Virus record (IMG/VR): IMGVR_UViG_3300025087_000015
Location: 1-44,709 of that record
DNA: 44,709 bases
Origin: a virus
Strand: one strand, 5' to 3'
Positions 7,482 to 44,709 of the stretch are shown one piece after another; the first letter of the stretch is position 1, and every line of letters begins with the position of its first letter. Below the pieces are notes generated by a model. That model was not told the origin of the DNA and searched no databases. It saw only the letters and a program-made list of their open reading frames with translations. The translations under genes were made by a program, and so were the position numbers.

Positions 7482-9753
7482 TTGGGGGTATCCCGTACAT
7501 TGTCATAAACTGTGCGGCCCTGGCGCTATATTTGGCAGCGCCTTCTGTATTGGGTTTAACTTTCAAACCTTCCATAAGCAATTTGCGGCCGGTATCAGAA
7601 GCGTATATTTTTGACAGGCCGTACGCTCCAGTGTTCTGGAGAATACCTAAATGCTTTTGATTCTCTGCCTTTATCCCCTTAGTAGCCAGATTGTTTACAA
7701 GTAAGGATATTTCTTTTAATTCCCTGACGGCTTGCGGATCCATTACCCTGGCAAGTATCTCCGGCTTATATGTACGCATAACGGTATCTATGGCGGACAT
7801 ATTTAATTCTCCGCTTTCGGGAATAGCGGTATCTATAATATCCTGGAAAAATCTTTTTTGTAACGGCGTGATATTCTCTTTACCCAAAACTGCTAAAGCG
7901 CCTTCAAATTCCTGCGTCCTTGCCGGATTGAGAACATATTTGACCATTTTCATGGAGTCTTTTTCTGAAAGCACCTTAATATCTTCCGGTATCCCTTTTA
8001 TCTTGCCTGATAACTTTTTAAGAGCTTCAATCTGCGGCTTGGAGAAAATACGGGACAATATCTCCGGCCTGTATCCTTGTAATACGGAATCAATAGCCTT
8101 TGCTTGCAACTCGCCTTCCGCCGGGATTGCTTTTCCGATTATGTCTTGAAAGAACCGTTCCTGTACGGGTTTTATGCCAGTCTTACCTATGGCCCGTTTA
8201 ACCATATCAAATTCCTTTATGCGCCCGGTGTTTATTAAATATGTAACAATAGCTACAGGGTCCTTCTCAGCCAGAGCGCGTATTTCATCTGATTTGAACA
8301 CTCGCGCGAAGTCGGTGTATTTCTTTTTCGCCAATGTATTTAATGCCCGCGCCTCTTTAGGCTGTGTCCTTAGATAATTGTCAAGGTCTTTCTGTAACCC
8401 TTGTTTTATCTGGACAAGTAACCGGCCCTTTTGCGTAGACTGGCCCGCCGCCCCTTTGAGCCCGCTTTGCATAGCAATAGCGTTTTCCTGTACAATCTTG
8501 TCATTTATTTTAGTAATAGCGTCGCTCACATTTCCAAAAGTGGGACGTTTGTATGGAGTTTGTCCGCCGGGTGTAGCTTTTGAAAATGAAGATGTTATTG
8601 AAAGCAAGTCTGGATCACCTTTGATAATAGCCCTTTGTTCCGCCGTTTGTATGGCGTTAGAGGTAAGAAGAGTATGCTTCAGCGGGACTTCCCTATTCAT
8701 ATCAATAATGGCGTTGCGTTTAGCATAGATATCTTTAATAACCGCATTTTCCGCCTGTGACTTGGCTATTACCGATTCCGTTACGGTCCTATTGACATCT
8801 TCCATGCTTAACTTTGTGCCGTATCTTTCGGATAACCTTGTCCCGATAGCGGATATTCCAGACCGTTTTTTCTTTCCTAATTCTCTGGCCGTCCTCGCCG
8901 CTTCCAACCCTACCTGTTCAGTGCTTAGTAGTGTGCCGTATTTTCTGGAAATGCCTAATTTAAAATCACGCAATGCCTGTATTTGTGCGCTTCTTGCCTC
9001 GTTCATGGAATCAGCGCCTATCCATGTATTGCTCATTAAATCCTCAAATTTTTTAAGCCGGGGGTTATTATTTATATCAGCCGGCGTAAGTTTGATTTTG
9101 AGTTTGCCGGCAATCTCGGCAAGTTTAGGGGCGTTGGCCTTAATGGTGGAAACAAAGGGTTTAGTCAATCCTTTTAGTGCCAATGTCCCTACACCCATGC
9201 CAGTTTCAAGCAATGCACCCTCTCCTGCGGCCTTTCCTATACCTATTGCGGCTTCACTGGGAGACAGGCTAGGAAGCCCCAGGACGCGATTTGCCAGTTG
9301 CCGGGCGCTTTCCCCCGCCATTGCGCCTAAACCCGCACCGAAAGCGCCTGTAGCCAGTCCTGTGGCTATTGAAGCCCCGCTAGTAACAGGGGCAGCTGCG
9401 GCTTGTGCGGCTATCAAAGGCGAAACGGCTACCCCCCCAGCGATCATACCGGCGGCGGGGAACAGACCCGTAACCTTTTCGCCTATTCTTTGCGTGGTTG
9501 TAAGCCCTTGTTTAATTCCTGTGGCCTTGCCCGCGCCAATTATGGGTTCTTTTGACGGGAATTCAAGGGATATCGGCTCTTTGGCCTTGTATGCTTCGCT
9601 CAATGGTTTAAAGACTTCTTTCCCGGTCAATGACTTTATATGCTTAGATACCTCTACTATGTCTTTGGCTGAACCATTGGATAAATCTAACTCGAAGGAT
9701 TCACCTTTTGAATATGCGTCCGTTATTTCAGCAAGCACTTCTTTCAATGGCAT
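7468..9753 (-). CDS. large ejection / internal virion protein
   Basis: A 761-residue protein with a helical, charged N-terminus and a glycine/alanine-rich hydrophobic stretch at about residues 98-165 (AAGMIAGGVAVSPLIAAQ, FGAGLGAMAGESARQLA). A long helical remainder carries two internally similar blocks, KDPVAIVTYLINTGRIKEFD and KDSMKMVKYVLNPARTQEFE, each followed by ..RFFQDIIG/D.AIP..GEL. It is the third and largest of three consecutive genes with ejection-protein character, matching the three-protein sets of P22 and T7 that form a DNA channel through the envelope. AAGGAC precedes the ATG. Assigned by size, composition and order. Confidence 0.7.
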   Translation of the reverse strand: MPLKEVLAEITDAYSKGESFELDLSNGSAKDIVEVSKHIKSLTGKEVFKPLSEAYKAKEPISLEFPSKEPIIGAGKATGIKQGLTTTQRIGEKVTGLFPAAGMIAGGVAVSPLIAAQAAAAPVTSGASIATGLATGAFGAGLGAMAGESARQLANRVLGLPSLSPSEAAIGIGKAAGEGALLETGMGVGTLALKGLTKPFVSTIKANAPKLAEIAGKLKIKLTPADINNNPRLKKFEDLMSNTWIGADSMNEARSAQIQALRDFKLGISRKYGTLLSTEQVGLEAARTARELGKKKRSGISAIGTRLSERYGTKLSMEDVNRTVTESVIAKSQAENAVIKDIYAKRNAIIDMNREVPLKHTLLTSNAIQTAEQRAIIKGDPDLLSITSSFSKATPGGQTPYKRPTFGNVSDAITKINDKIVQENAIAMQSGLKGAAGQSTQKGRLLVQIKQGLQKDLDNYLRTQPKEARALNTLAKKKYTDFARVFKSDEIRALAEKDPVAIVTYLINTGRIKEFDMVKRAIGKTGIKPVQERFFQDIIGKAIPAEGELQAKAIDSVLQGYRPEILSRIFSKPQIEALKKLSGKIKGIPEDIKVLSEKDSMKMVKYVLNPARTQEFEGALAVLGKENITPLQKRFFQDIIDTAIPESGELNMSAIDTVMRTYKPEILARVMDPQAVRELKEISLLVNNLATKGIKAENQKHLGILQNTGAYGLSKIYASDTGRKLLMEGLKVKPNTEGAAKYSARAAQFMTMYGIPPNVEK

Positions 9754-33702: not shown

Positions 33703-35054
33703 GATGGTGTTTCCTCCTGTAGTTTTCCCCAGTCCTGTCTTTTCAGTTTTAAACTATTATTCATTTCTGCGACAAGATTCTGGAACATCTTATCAGCGGC
33801 CTTTGACTTACGCTGTAAATTCTTTAATACCTTTTCTTCCCCATCCGTATAAATCAAATCTACATTTACCTGATTCTTTTGTCCAAAGCGCCAACAACGC
33901 CGGACACTCTGATAATACTGCTCGTAAGAGTGTGAGGGAAAAAATGTCATATGGGAGCAGTGTTGGAAGTTTAAACCCCATGCCCCTATCTTAGGCTTGG
34001 TAACAAGCACTCGTATTTGTCCATCTAAAAAAGCCTTAAACTTTTCTTCTTTTTCATCATCTGAATCCGATCCACTTATTTGAGTTGCGCCTGGGATTAT
34101 CTTTTCCAATAAATCCCCCTCATTATTGAGATAGCACCACGCCATACCGGGTAATTTGTGAGATAGCAAAGAAGCGGCCTTTTCACATCGTTCCTGTATT
34201 GTATCTTTCCGTTCTTCCCTTTGTTCCGGCAAGGTGGAAGCGGCCATTACAAATAAATATCCGTCGCGCATTTTCCCATGCTTTACTATATGCTCGGTTT
34301 CTTGTAAAGGCGGGAGTATGAACGGTCCATCATTGAATCCCAAATCCGACGGCTTTCTTATGGCCCTAGCCCAGGAACATATCCACCGCCAGAAAGGGGT
34401 TTCAGCATGGCCCTTAAATCTCCATTTTGGTTGTTCCCCGTACATTCGGCGCATTCCGCTATTATTATTGTCGTTCTTGAAGAAACGGTTAAGCATATCC
34501 ATATGGCCCATGTACCCTAACGCCTCGCTGGAAGTTCCCAGCTCTATATAATCATTGGGGGCGGCTGTTGCAGTTGTTAAAAGTCTATACTTCATCTTCC
34601 GCATAAATTCCGTAACCTGATATTTTATTGCGCCGTCAAATGATTTTAATATGCTGGATTCGTCGGCTACTACTCCGGAGTAGTCCTCCGGTGATAAATA
34701 ATGCAATCGTTCGTAATTGGTTATATTAATTGTTCCTGGGATCATTTTGTCTTTTATCCGTTTAGCGGATATATCAAATTTCTTTGCTTCCTGTTCCGTC
34801 TGGTATGATACTGCCAGTGGAGTTAATATCAATACGGGCTTATTGGTTTTCTTGACAACGTTATCGGCCCATACTAATTGCATTGGGGTTTTACCCATTC
34901 CGCAATCTGCGAATATGGCACACCGCCCCATGCGGATCGCCCAATCTACTAATGATTTTTGAAAATCAAATAAAAACCCCGGTATGGTTATAGGGTCAAA
35001 CCCTTCTCCCTCGCTGTATCTATTCTTTTCTTCTAAAAACTTTTGATAGCTCAT
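33693..35054 (-). CDS. SNF2-type helicase / translocase
   Basis: A 453-residue SF2 protein. Motif I is ADCGMGKTPMQL, motif II VVADESSILKSF (DESS), motif III TTATAAPNDYIELG, and the C-terminal helicase motifs are GAWGLNFQHCSHMTF and YYQSVRRCWRFGQ (SNF2 motif VI). It shares a conserved pairing with the methyltransferase it overlaps, an arrangement found in many phages and thought to aid DNA modification or translocation. It ends in KLQEETPSWL. Confidence 0.8.
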   Translation of the reverse strand: MSYQKFLEEKNRYSEGEGFDPITIPGFLFDFQKSLVDWAIRMGRCAIFADCGMGKTPMQLVWADNVVKKTNKPVLILTPLAVSYQTEQEAKKFDISAKRIKDKMIPGTINITNYERLHYLSPEDYSGVVADESSILKSFDGAIKYQVTEFMRKMKYRLLTTATAAPNDYIELGTSSEALGYMGHMDMLNRFFKNDNNNSGMRRMYGEQPKWRFKGHAETPFWRWICSWARAIRKPSDLGFNDGPFILPPLQETEHIVKHGKMRDGYLFVMAASTLPEQREERKDTIQERCEKAASLLSHKLPGMAWCYLNNEGDLLEKIIPGATQISGSDSDDEKEEKFKAFLDGQIRVLVTKPKIGAWGLNFQHCSHMTFFPSHSYEQYYQSVRRCWRFGQKNQVNVDLIYTDGEEKVLKNLQRKSKAADKMFQNLVAEMNNSLKLKRQDWGKLQEETPSWL

Positions 35055-36499: not shown

Positions 36500-37484
36500 G
36501 ATTGATCTCCTTAATTTTATCTATACATTTGGAAATGTTTTTATTAATATCGTGTTCCCAGAATCTATACACTTTATACCCTATAAATTGGAGTGTAAAA
36601 TCTTGTTGTTTATCTTTTATTCTTGTTTCTAGTCTGTTATGCCAGTAATCTCCATCACAATAAATACAAATATTGGGATCTATGAAAAAATCGGGGATAG
36701 TTCTAGCTTGCAATATAGGATATTGCTTCTGGAATAATATGCCACGCTGTGCAAGCTCTTGTTCCATCTTAATTTCTATGGATGTATCCTTTTTCTTTCC
36801 ATTCAATATACCTGCTATAGCTCGGCAATGGTAGGAACAATATTTAACGTGCCCATATCCTATTCTGGATTTTGATTTATAAAATTCTTTTTTACATAAC
36901 TTACAGACACATTTAATCTTACCACCTCGCCATTGTGTGCTATTGCTTCCACTTCTATATTTTCTGTTCACTGTGCCAGTACATTTAAGGGAGCAATATT
37001 TACCACCACCATCTTTTATTTTAGATGGATATGCCATAAAATGTTTACCGCAAGCACTGCATATTTTATCTATTTTGTTGTATCTACCTTTAAAACTACA
37101 TTTCCGTGAACAATATTTACTCGTGTCTTTTCTATGCGCATAAGTAGTAAATTGTGTTCCGCAGAATTTGCAAATTTTCTTAATCTCACCTCCTCTCCAA
37201 TTACTACCATTTTCTCCTATGTGATTCTTCCCATGTAAAATACTGCGGCATTTTTCCGAACATGTCATTGCCGTATTGGCCCTATACTTATTGACATAGA
37301 AAAACTTACCACATATATTACATATCTTTTCAACTTTTCCACCTCTCCATGCAGGGCTTCTTATCCCTATATCATTTTGTGAATGCCAAACACCATAACA
37401 TTTAAGGGAACAGAAGTTTTCTTTCTTAATTCTATAAGGGGGGATATCTTTTTCTTTTCCGCAGATACTGCATTTTTTAATCAT
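36453..37484 (-). CDS. zinc-finger homing endonuclease (Vsr-like)
   Basis: A 343-residue protein with five tandem CxxC-x17-19-CxxxC zinc fingers in the first two thirds (for example CSICGKEKDIPP and CKFCGTQFTTYA), some with a WRGG linker. The C-terminal nuclease domain has IPDFFIDPNICIYCDGDYWH and YKVYRFWEHDI, an EDxHD/Vsr-like signature. It is AT-richer than its neighbours. ATG at 37484 follows GGAGG. It likely invaded this operon and cuts intronless or empty target alleles. Confidence 0.7.
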   Translation of the reverse strand: MIKKCSICGKEKDIPPYRIKKENFCSLKCYGVWHSQNDIGIRSPAWRGGKVEKICNICGKFFYVNKYRANTAMTCSEKCRSILHGKNHIGENGSNWRGGEIKKICKFCGTQFTTYAHRKDTSKYCSRKCSFKGRYNKIDKICSACGKHFMAYPSKIKDGGGKYCSLKCTGTVNRKYRSGSNSTQWRGGKIKCVCKLCKKEFYKSKSRIGYGHVKYCSYHCRAIAGILNGKKKDTSIEIKMEQELAQRGILFQKQYPILQARTIPDFFIDPNICIYCDGDYWHNRLETRIKDKQQDFTLQFIGYKVYRFWEHDINKNISKCIDKIKEINHGRHNRIRATDSGAR

Positions 37485-37502
37485 AAAATCGGCCTCCATG
37501 GT

Positions 37503-37562
37503 TGCTCCGCAAAGAGGTTACCATGAAGGCACAATATTTTATAGTGATTGCTTTGCGGAGCA
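37503..37562. repeat. 12-bp inverted repeat at the 5' edge of the homing endonuclease
   Basis: TGCTCCGCAAAG (37503-37514) and CTTTGCGGAGCA (37551-37562) are perfectly complementary with a 36-base loop. It lies between the homing endonuclease start and the upstream gene; no U-run follows, so a terminator role is uncertain. Confidence 0.7.
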
Positions 37563-40144: not shown

Positions 40145-40306
40145 GCGTTACCTCCGGTTAATTGCCATATCGAAATTTAGGCCAGTGGCACGGCTAGGGG
40201 GTTAGACATACCGCCCACTGGCGCAAAGCGGCGCACGGCATAAGGCCCGCAAAGGTTTTATGCCTGCGCTCAAATAATCTATGTAGTGGTTTGCGGGCCA
40301 TGCCAT
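40145..40306 (-). promoter_or_regulatory. structured leader of the recombination operon
   Basis: Starts from the minus promoter near 40300. It contains interleaved complements: GGCATAA (40237-40243) with TTATGCC (40258-40264), and GGCCCGCAAA (40244-40253) with TTTGCGGGCC (40290-40299), in A-B-A'-B' order, i.e. a pseudoknot-type arrangement. A third pair, GCCAGTGG (40181-40188) and CCACTGGC (40215-40222), follows. No gene is supported here. Confidence 0.55.
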
Positions 40307-40335
40307 ATTATAGCAGATTGTTTTCCGTTGTCTAA
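40307..40335 (-). promoter_or_regulatory. extended -10 sigma-70 promoter for the recombination operon
   Basis: Minus strand TTAGAC (40335-40330), 17-base spacer ending TGC and TATAAT (40312-40307), giving an extended -10 (TGCTATAAT). It drives the leftward operon. Confidence 0.75.
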
Positions 40336-40381
40336 TTAATTCTTCTAATAGTGCCATTAGATTTATTAATACCTTAAAACC

Positions 40382-40410
40382 TTGACAAGCCGCTTTCCGT
40401 AACATATAAT
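40382..40410 (+). promoter_or_regulatory. consensus sigma-70 promoter for the repeat-protein operon
   Basis: TTGACA (40382-40387), exactly 17 bases, TATAAT (40405-40410): a perfect consensus. Transcription should begin near 40417, at the base of the structured leader. Confidence 0.9.
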
Positions 40411-40416
40411 CTATTC

Positions 40417-40531
40417 TAGGATGAAGACAGCAACGGCGGTTTCGTATTTTAAGAACGCCCCCGAACATACCGCCGCTTGTCTTCATCCACTTGCTGCGAA
40501 CCGGGGGCGTTCCTTTTTGGGAGGATAACAT
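40417..40531 (+). ncRNA. structured leader RNA with pseudoknot and attenuator-like stem
   Basis: Stem 1: GGATGAAGACA (40419-40429) with TGTCTTCATCC (40478-40488), extended by CGGCGGT (40434-40440) with ACCGCCG (40469-40475). Stem 2: GAACGCCCCCG (40453-40463), inside the loop of stem 1, with CGGGGGCGTTC (40502-40512), followed by five T and then the ribosome site GGGAGG. The stems either coexist as an H-type pseudoknot or compete, with stem 2 plus the U-run acting as a terminator. All three pairings are perfect. Known riboswitch families are not recognised. Confidence 0.7.
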
Positions 40532-42085
40532 ATGAAAACCATAACCATTAACACACAAGCCGAGTTTGACGCGCTGCCGAAAGAGTTTGCCGAGTATACC
40601 GAAATATATGTCATAGGAAAACTCAATACCATAAATACTAATAGAGTTAACTCACATATTGTCGTGGGCGGCAACGCCACGATAAACGACGTGGGCGGCA
40701 ACGCCACGATAAGCGACGTGGGCGGCAACGCCACGATAAACGACGTGAGCGACAACGCCACGATAAACGACGTGGGCGGCAACGCCACGATAAACGACGT
40801 GGGCGGCAACGCCACGATAAGCTACGTGGGCGGCAACGCCACGATAAGCGACGTGGGCGGCAACGCCACGATAAACGACGTGGGCGACAACGCCACGATA
40901 AGCTACGTGCGCGACAACGCCACGATAAGCTACGTGGGCGGCAACGCCACGATAAGCTACGTGCGCGACAACGCCACGATAAGCTACGTGCGCGACAACG
41001 CCACGATAAGCTACGTGCGCGGCAACGCCACGATAAGCTACGTGGGCGGCAACGCCACGATAAACGACGTGGACGACAACGCCACGATAAGCTACGTGGG
41101 CGGCAACGCCACGATAAGCTACGTGCGCGGCAATGCCACGATAAGCTACGTGCGCGGCAACGCCACGATAAGCTACGTAGGCAACAACGCCACGATAAGC
41201 TACGTGCGCGGCAACGCCACGATAAACGACGTGGGCGGCAACGCCACGATAAGCGACGTGGGCGACAACGCCACGATAAGCTACGCGCGCGGCAACGCCA
41301 CGATAAACGACGTGAGCGACAACGCCACGATAAGCTACGTGGGCGGCAACGCCACGATAAGCGACGTGGGCAGCGACGCCACGATAAGCTACGTGCGCAA
41401 CAACGCCACGATAAGCTACGTGCGCGACAACGCCACGATAAACGACGTGGGCGACAACGCCACGATAAGCTACGTGGGCGACAACGCCACGATAAACGAC
41501 GTGGGCGGCAACGCCACGATAAACGACGTGGGCGACAACGCCACGATAAGCTACGTGCGCGGCAACGCCACGATAAGCTACGTGCGCGACAACGTCACGA
41601 TAAGCTACGTGCGCGGCAACGCCACGATAAGGGTATATTCGTCTACGGTTACGATTGGTGGATTATTCTTTTTCGCCACCTTGATAATGCAGTTCTGCGT
41701 CTGCAAAGTGCTTAAAAAATCCAAGACCGCCAAGATAGTAAAGCACGTTAAAACAAAAATATCCAACAAGGACTTTGCCGATACCCTTAAAAAAACAAAA
41801 GACGGATATATCCTCTACAAGAGCGTGAATCCCGATACGCTTTGCGATTTCCTAACCGGCAAGATAAAATACGAGGGTGTCGTTACCTGTCCCGATTGGA
41901 AACCCGATACGGATATAGAGTGTGGGAACGGGCTACATCTATCTCCTACCCCAGATATGGCGTTATCGTATAATAAGGGTAAATTGTTAAAATGCGCAGT
42001 TAAGCTGAATGACTTTGCCGTGTACCAGGGTAACCTCACTAAAGTGCGCTGCTCAAAGGTCATCGTGCTTGGCGAGGTGAAATAA
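40532..42085 (+). CDS. repeat protein: 36 nonapeptides, hydrophobic segment, C-terminal DUF7666-like domain
   Basis: A 517-residue protein. Residues 1-47 are an N-terminal cap (MKTITINTQAEFDALPKEFA). About 36 repeats of nine residues follow, consensus NATI(S/N)(Y/D)V(G/R)(G/D), predicting a beta-solenoid. Next is a hydrophobic segment (TIGGLFFFATLIMQFCVCKV) and a C-terminal 110-residue domain (KDGYILYKSVNPDTLCDFLT, with GNGLHLSPTPDMALSYNKGK) that resembles DUF7666. Nonapeptide length recalls RTX beta-rolls, but the calcium Asp is absent. Function unknown. It is the first gene behind a perfect promoter and structured leader. Confidence 0.8.
   Translation: MKTITINTQAEFDALPKEFAEYTEIYVIGKLNTINTNRVNSHIVVGGNATINDVGGNATISDVGGNATINDVSDNATINDVGGNATINDVGGNATISYVGGNATISDVGGNATINDVGDNATISYVRDNATISYVGGNATISYVRDNATISYVRDNATISYVRGNATISYVGGNATINDVDDNATISYVGGNATISYVRGNATISYVRGNATISYVGNNATISYVRGNATINDVGGNATISDVGDNATISYARGNATINDVSDNATISYVGGNATISDVGSDATISYVRNNATISYVRDNATINDVGDNATISYVGDNATINDVGGNATINDVGDNATISYVRGNATISYVRDNVTISYVRGNATIRVYSSTVTIGGLFFFATLIMQFCVCKVLKKSKTAKIVKHVKTKISNKDFADTLKKTKDGYILYKSVNPDTLCDFLTGKIKYEGVVTCPDWKPDTDIECGNGLHLSPTPDMALSYNKGKLLKCAVKLNDFAVYQGNLTKVRCSKVIVLGEVK
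40673..41644 (+). repeat. 27-bp tandem coding repeat array
   Basis: 36 in-frame copies of a 27-base unit (AACGCCACGATA followed by a variable 15 bases), from 40673; unit 35 starts exactly at 41591 (34 x 27 from the first). Variation is limited to a few codons (AAC/AGC, GAC/TAC, GGC/CGC, GGC/GAC/AAC), while the rest is nearly identical at the DNA level, pointing to recent expansion or gene conversion. Confidence 0.95.
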
Positions 42086-44384: not shown

Positions 44385-44709
44385 ACGACAAGATAGGGCT
44401 GGAAAAGATGGTGGAGACACTTGAAAACATACTTAAAAGCGGGGCACGACTTGAAGATAAGGTAGGGCGTATTTGGATAACCGTAGACAAAGCTCGCGCC
44501 CTTCTCGCCGATGAAAGGGCTCAGAAGCCAGTAGCCACGGGACTGGTGGAAGCTATTAAAAAAGATATAGCGAAATCAAAACTACCGGGATTAAACAAGG
44601 CCATAGTATACACGATATTATCCCGCCACGCCGACGACAAGCAGGACGTGGTAGATAGGAAACCTATAATAGAACCCACCATTGAATATTTAACAGCGGC
44701 AGGATGTTA
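44381..44709 (+). CDS. MazG-like pyrophosphohydrolase, 5' part (continues at position 1 across the join)
   Basis: ATG at 44381, just after AAGGAGGCGGGA; the frame stays open to the window end and continues in phase through the repeated 109 bases to 455. This part encodes the N-terminal 89 residues plus the first 20 residues of the part listed at the window start. See the entry at position 1 for motifs. Confidence 0.75.
   Translation, partial: MNDKIGLEKMVETLENILKSGARLEDKVGRIWITVDKARALLADERAQKPVATGLVEAIKKDIAKSKLPGLNKAIVYTILSRHADDKQDVVDRKPIIEPTIEYLTAAGC
44601..44709. repeat. terminal direct repeat, right copy
   Basis: Identical to 1-109. The coding frame of the MazG-like gene passes through it unbroken. 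Confidence 0.95.

Follow-up and report, generated by a model that had tools for sequence, protein, structure and literature searches.

Interleaved two-stem phage leaders: a possible undescribed family of RNA switches, each serving one gene

In the attenuators of plasmid pT181, a pre-emptor segment pairs with the 5′ arm of the terminator. The HK022 put RNA is a polymerase-binding antiterminator that has no terminator of its own, the T4 gene 32 leader forms an H-type pseudoknot whose stems cross at the start of the mRNA, and type III toxin-antitoxin systems combine tandem RNA repeats (ToxI) with a ToxN/AbiQ-like gene. Attenuation in pT181 operates via kissing hairpins with an antisense RNA (PMC3753616), and both phage P4 CI RNA immunity and Gifsy-1 IsrK rely on conditional termination in a leader transcript before the gene (PMC4825925). 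Here we describe a phage leader, hereafter leader D, that shares a feature with each of these and differs from all of them.

Leader D lies in a window (the whole stretch of DNA analysed, 44,709 bases) that is a virus record whose ends carry an exact 109-bp direct repeat (1-109 and 44601-44709) and that is, for this reason, probably a complete phage genome, though classed as linear. No DNA-level resemblance to any named phage was found for the window, and its closest RecT relatives belong to phages and to prophages of Spirochaetota and Elusimicrobiota. The gene under leader D (40532..42085, + strand) encodes a 517-aa protein with ~36 copies of a 27-bp (9-aa) repeat and a conserved C-terminal domain; it matches repeat-protein families only and no toxin family. 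The repeat array spans 40663-41631, and the C-terminal domain recurs in other phages, at times without repeats (L256-L264).

Transcription is expected from a sigma70-type promoter, TTGACA-N17-TATAAT (40382..40410, + strand; −35 at 40382-40387, −10 at 40405-40410), which matches the consensus at 12/12 positions. Only one other 12/12 site exists in the genome (24189-24160, − strand); it has an 18-nt spacer, adjoins a small gene and shows no structured leader, so that the leader D promoter is the sole one with a 17-nt spacer. As the start predicted from the promoter falls at 40417-40419, the first stem (S1) begins at +1/+2 and constitutes the 5′ end of the transcript. Its outer 5′ arm GGATGAAGACA (40419..40429) pairs over 11 bp with the outer 3′ arm TGTCTTCATCC (40478..40488), and its inner part pairs CGGCGGT (40434..40440) with ACCGCCG (40469..40475) over 7 bp. 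The second, terminator-like stem (S2) has its 5′ arm GAACGCCCCCG (40453..40463) within the S1 loop and its 3′ arm CGGGGGCGTTC (40502..40512) downstream, 11 bp in all; the arms of the two stems interleave without any overlap, and in an alternative S2 hairpin the S1 outer 3′ arm would fall in the region of the apical loop. A tract of five U only, preceded by C, follows at 40514..40518 as the predicted termination region, then the Shine-Dalgarno sequence GGGAGG (40519..40524) and the ATG of the repeat protein at 40532, all on the + strand. The promoter, the 11+7 bp stem, the crossing 11-bp stem, the U5 and the ribosome site had all been placed exactly so in a preliminary description of this locus, which lacked a further 6-bp alternative pairing within the leader (CAGCAA/TTGCTG) and the interleaved leader at the neighbouring divergent promoter (element A, below). 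No leader peptide was identified in leader D, and no tandem repeat precedes the repeat-protein gene.

The same description held that these pairings could not be random, which is borne out. Leader D is the only crossing pair of perfect inverted repeats of at least 9 bp in the 44.7-kb genome, and crossing repeats of 10+11 bp appear in 0/60 Markov-shuffled genomes. Its summed stacking energy of −47.6 kcal/mol was reached by none of 20,000 dinucleotide shuffles (best −43.3), and shuffling the 175-nt stretch before the ATG 1,000 times likewise gave no match. The fold of the S1 region lies 5.6 SD below that of shuffled sequence. Rfam 15 returned no match in the window at gathering and none at E<=5 for 40150-40560. 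The leader has no copy elsewhere in its own genome and no homologue detectable by DNA search of phages; the exact S2 pattern retrieved just unrelated terminators in GC-rich phages from viral contigs. Homologous leaders upstream of similar repeat proteins, where the preliminary description had proposed to look for compensatory changes, did not materialize: among the repeat-protein homologues examined none has a D-like leader, and D itself consequently offers no covariation test. Covariation is instead seen in relatives of the class, where stems are fully replaced.

These relatives were found by scanning for the layout. Scans for crossing stems yield mostly chance matches when left unconstrained, so the evidence below comes solely from scans that are anchored or limited in geometry. 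Promoter-anchored scans covered 2,537 sites in ~2.8 Mb of related phages and prophages with no U-tract requirement, and a descriptor scan required S1 crossing S2 plus a U-tract within geometry limits at any position, with or without a promoter. The former gave 8 interleaved pairs at <=−33 kcal/mol versus 0.17 expected and the latter 11 real matches at <=−33 kcal/mol versus 0 in shuffles, figures that are optimistic because thresholds and loop ranges were set during exploration and shuffled sequence lacks the terminator density of natural DNA. The 8 promoter-anchored pairs amount to 7 distinct ones, 5 of them outside the phage of the window, and at <=−30 a U-rich tail follows S2 in 6 of 8 distinct matches. 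Descriptor matches comprise L084, L083, L082 (one phage), L152, L070, L179 and L125. Some candidates were discarded: in L115 several G-U pairs are required to form S2, and the element points away from the gene; matches in L052, L057, L062, L126 and L153 are low-complexity GT/GTGCAC arrays; those in L060 and L134 are parS-like palindromes. In L060 (6853-6760, − strand; also in L134) several copies of TGTTTCACGTGGAACA, near the parS consensus, suggest a partition site.

A terminator-like stem with a U-tract between promoter and start codon, as in D (11-bp S2 and U5 before the Shine-Dalgarno), is thus found in the descriptor matches and also in L168, L237, L111 and Flavobacterium phage 11b; sequences from L237 and phage 11b alone played no part in defining the class. 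In L111, whose RecT is the closest (58%), promoter-anchored scanning of loci from RecT-related phages and prophages revealed three D-like leaders, preceding two regulator-like genes and one ParB-like gene; two of these leaders include an inner 7-bp stem like that of D. The same phage carries a type II hammerhead ribozyme at 8395-8458, above the Rfam threshold. Phage 11b, scanned after the class had been defined, has one D-like leader before the CDS at 33738. In the inspected members the element sits between a sigma70 or Bacteroidota promoter (several carry the Bacteroidota box TAnnTTTG) and a start codon located 11-26 bases past S2; S1 starts at about +1 to +6 in all members, and most precede single accessory genes. 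With no Rfam family over the elements in nine related loci either, and the layout recurring at the promoters of other phages, the earlier proposal of a cis-regulatory RNA leader outside any recognised family is well supported.

The clearest case of covarying replacement concerns a GIY-YIG endonuclease gene. This gene was first known with a D-like leader in two phages, whose proteins are 51% identical; a third homologue (L237) came from a protein-based search, and its upstream region, inspected only afterwards, showed the same layout, matched by 0/2,000 shuffles. Among the three leaders (L152, L237 and L083) layout, geometry, position and distance to the ATG are kept and every stem sequence is different: S1 reads AGAGTCGTCG, AGTTGCGTT and TAGCCTTCGAA, and S2 reads CCCGCAAA, AATCAAACC and ACCCTTGATT. 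A further GIY-YIG homologue, in L242 (1340-1404), has a plain terminator-like hairpin and U6 directly before the start codon with no S1, and several others have no such structure upstream.

Folding predictions give an order to the two stems. The MFE structure of leader D (−37.9) contains S1, and S2 cannot be represented simultaneously; the predicted S1 state lies at −32.5 versus −30.3 for the S2 state. Predictions for nascent RNA have S1 dominating until the S2 3′ arm is made in nearly all D-like members, and for the full-length RNA the S2 state is predicted to be the more stable in many of them, with D and phage 11b leaning to S1. The interior of S2 also pairs more than in shuffles (Fisher p=6e-5 over 11 elements; D alone p=0.07), which a full S1 would prevent, and this favours two exclusive states. 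It also implies that the alternative state is a long hairpin, resembling an intrinsic terminator, with a loop that could pair with the start of the transcript, as throughout the D-like class. Given that S1 is predicted to form first and that the S2 state resembles a terminator hairpin, we read the class as kinetic attenuators.

For leader D itself we therefore propose, with a probability of roughly one half, a transcription attenuator for one phage gene in which S1 acts as antiterminator and S2 as terminator. Polymerase would start at the perfect promoter with the S1 5′ arm as the very 5′ end of the RNA, and S1 (11+7 bp) would close before the S2 3′ arm exists and lock the S2 5′ arm inside its loop; read-through into the repeat-protein gene would then be the default. 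If S1 were delayed, or its 5′ arm captured by a protein, an RNA or an altered choice of start site, S2 could form instead, with an apical loop that contains the S1 3′ arm, and together with U5 it might release a ~100-nt leader RNA ahead of the start codon. Since the S1 state is the more stable in D, a strong trigger would presumably be needed to switch this leader off. No trans or antisense partner of leader D was found in this phage: the genome holds no other complementary stretch of at least 12 nt, and the − strand has no promoter of at least 9/12 within 40382-40700. The idea of an insulator, with upstream read-through preventing S1, is not supported, as S1 is predicted to fold whether or not upstream sequence is included.

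The preliminary description put forward two mechanisms, of which exclusive antiterminator and terminator states fit the family better, with the S2 interior pairing and a U-tract in most members; an H-type pseudoknot fits less well. In the latter, S1 and S2 would co-form at the mRNA 5′ end as a stabiliser against RNase or a gate for ribosome access. Coexistence is sterically possible since the arms, in contrast to those of classical attenuators, never overlap; L2+L3 is long enough to span S1 in the listed members, and the position of S1 near +1 throughout the class would also suit such a role.

Further support for a pseudoknot comes from a second type of leader. About 50 bp upstream of the D promoter, a divergent promoter of the recT operon (TAGACA-N16-TATAAT, 40307..40334, − strand; 11/12 with an extended −10) also opens on an interleaved two-stem leader, element A (40231..40299, − strand). 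Here S1 is GGCCCGCAAA (40299-40290/40253-40244, − strand) and S2 is GGCATAA (40264-40258/40243-40237), extended by GCGC, with L2 AACC and L3 0; taken alone element A is modest, as 118 of 20,000 shuffles are as good. Further inverted repeats follow at 40225-40100 on the − strand (GCCAGTGG/CCACTGGC and CCGCCG/CGGCGG), making a structured leader of ~200 nt ahead of the first gene of the operon. A paralogue of element A, element B (37492..37562, − strand), lies upstream of a DUF559/Vsr-like endonuclease gene and has an S1 of 12 bp and an S2 of GCCTTCATGGT/ACCATGGAGGC, whose 3′ arm contains the Shine-Dalgarno GGAGG of the ATG at 37484. A and B are more alike in sequence than any of 1000 shuffles, and S2 has been replaced between them with its pairing retained. 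Element C, of the same type, follows a strong promoter in a RecT-related phage (L011). Elements A, B and C share the geometry of L2 4-5 nt and L3 0, and all three lack a U-tract and significant inner pairing; this, together with the covered Shine-Dalgarno in B, speaks for a pseudoknot. Leaders of relatives of the B endonuclease show no interleaved structure, and two of them seem to lie in group I introns; in L100 and L101, near 2780-2960, DUF559-type endonuclease relatives are preceded by sequence like the 3′ core of a group I intron. Bacteroides phage B124-14 (L230, 2977 onward, + strand) has a weaker promoter-linked interleaved pair with L3=0 that is within chance expectation for the scan; no gene is annotated on the + strand of the gap around it, and it is possibly a small RNA. 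For the D type, with an S2 that mostly ends in a U-rich tract and an interior whose pairing a full S1 would block, we consider the pseudoknot doubtful.

It is a good deal less probable that this promoter chiefly yields a stable, structured small RNA with its 3′ end at U5 and that transcription extends into the gene just through leaky read-through. Together the promoter, the compact fold and the terminator do make up a ~100-nt unit, and Gifsy-1 IsrK offers a phage precedent in which a small RNA and a read-through mRNA arise from one promoter (PMC4825925). Against this, what is kept across the class is position relative to the start codon and not sequence, and no target complementarity of at least 12 nt exists in the phage. 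A put-like RNA that modifies RNA polymerase to ignore downstream terminators, as in HK022, would account for structured leaders at both divergent promoters, one of them heading the recT operon, yet it is hardly credible when most members precede single accessory genes, S2 itself is terminator-like and no conserved sequence is available for recognition by polymerase. Single weak scan matches do look random, but chance, like inverted repeats acting at the DNA level (operators, for example), is a very improbable explanation of D and its class given the shuffling results, the recurrence at promoters and the replacement of stems with pairing kept.

Returning to the attenuator reading, the same design with entirely different sequences at the promoters of other phages suggests that D-like leaders are a family of RNA on/off switches, so far undescribed, each acting on one phage gene. 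We tentatively extend this, as a conjecture somewhat less likely to hold than to fail, to a widespread, sequence-independent class of phage riboregulators (in phages of Elusimicrobiota/Spirochaetota-like and Bacteroidota-like hosts) in which a terminator immediately ahead of the start codon has a loop complementary to the 5′ end of the same transcript, and the availability of that 5′ end alone sets expression, with the terminator-free L3 = 0 form as a related pseudoknot gating ribosome access. Structured RNAs are normally detected via conserved sequence; in the D-like class nothing but geometry and position is retained, and this would account for family libraries having missed it. If the attenuator reading holds, phages of poorly studied bacteria would carry numerous small switches, each self-contained, that separate accessory genes such as endonucleases, antirepressor-like regulators and repeat proteins from the remaining programme. 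Flavobacterium phage 11b, which comes from an isolated Flavobacterium host, makes the idea directly testable.

The arrangement of a loop complementary to the 5′ end has no description in the literature searched, which is weak evidence of novelty since only open-access papers were covered. Compared with known systems, type III toxin-antitoxin loci resemble leader D in the order of promoter, pseudoknot-like RNA, terminator and gene; they differ in that D has no tandem RNA repeats and its downstream gene has no toxin family match. The T4 gene 32 leader likewise has crossing stems at a phage mRNA 5′ end, whereas D has far longer stems, a U-tract after the second one and an S2 interior that competes with S1. 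Like HK022 put, D is a structured RNA at the start of an early phage transcript, but its S2 resembles a terminator and no sequence is conserved in its class. P4 CI RNA and IsrK are also phage leader transcripts with conditional termination before a gene (termination being predicted in D); those use a trans-acting RNA, for which D has no partner of at least 12 nt in this phage. The attenuators of the pT181 type appear nearest in logic to the D-like class. They differ from D, over which no antisense promoter was seen and whose 5′ end is complementary to the part of the putative terminator that would form its apical loop; what pT181/pIP501-type attenuators have in common with it is that an upstream leader segment would decide whether a terminator forms ahead of one gene.
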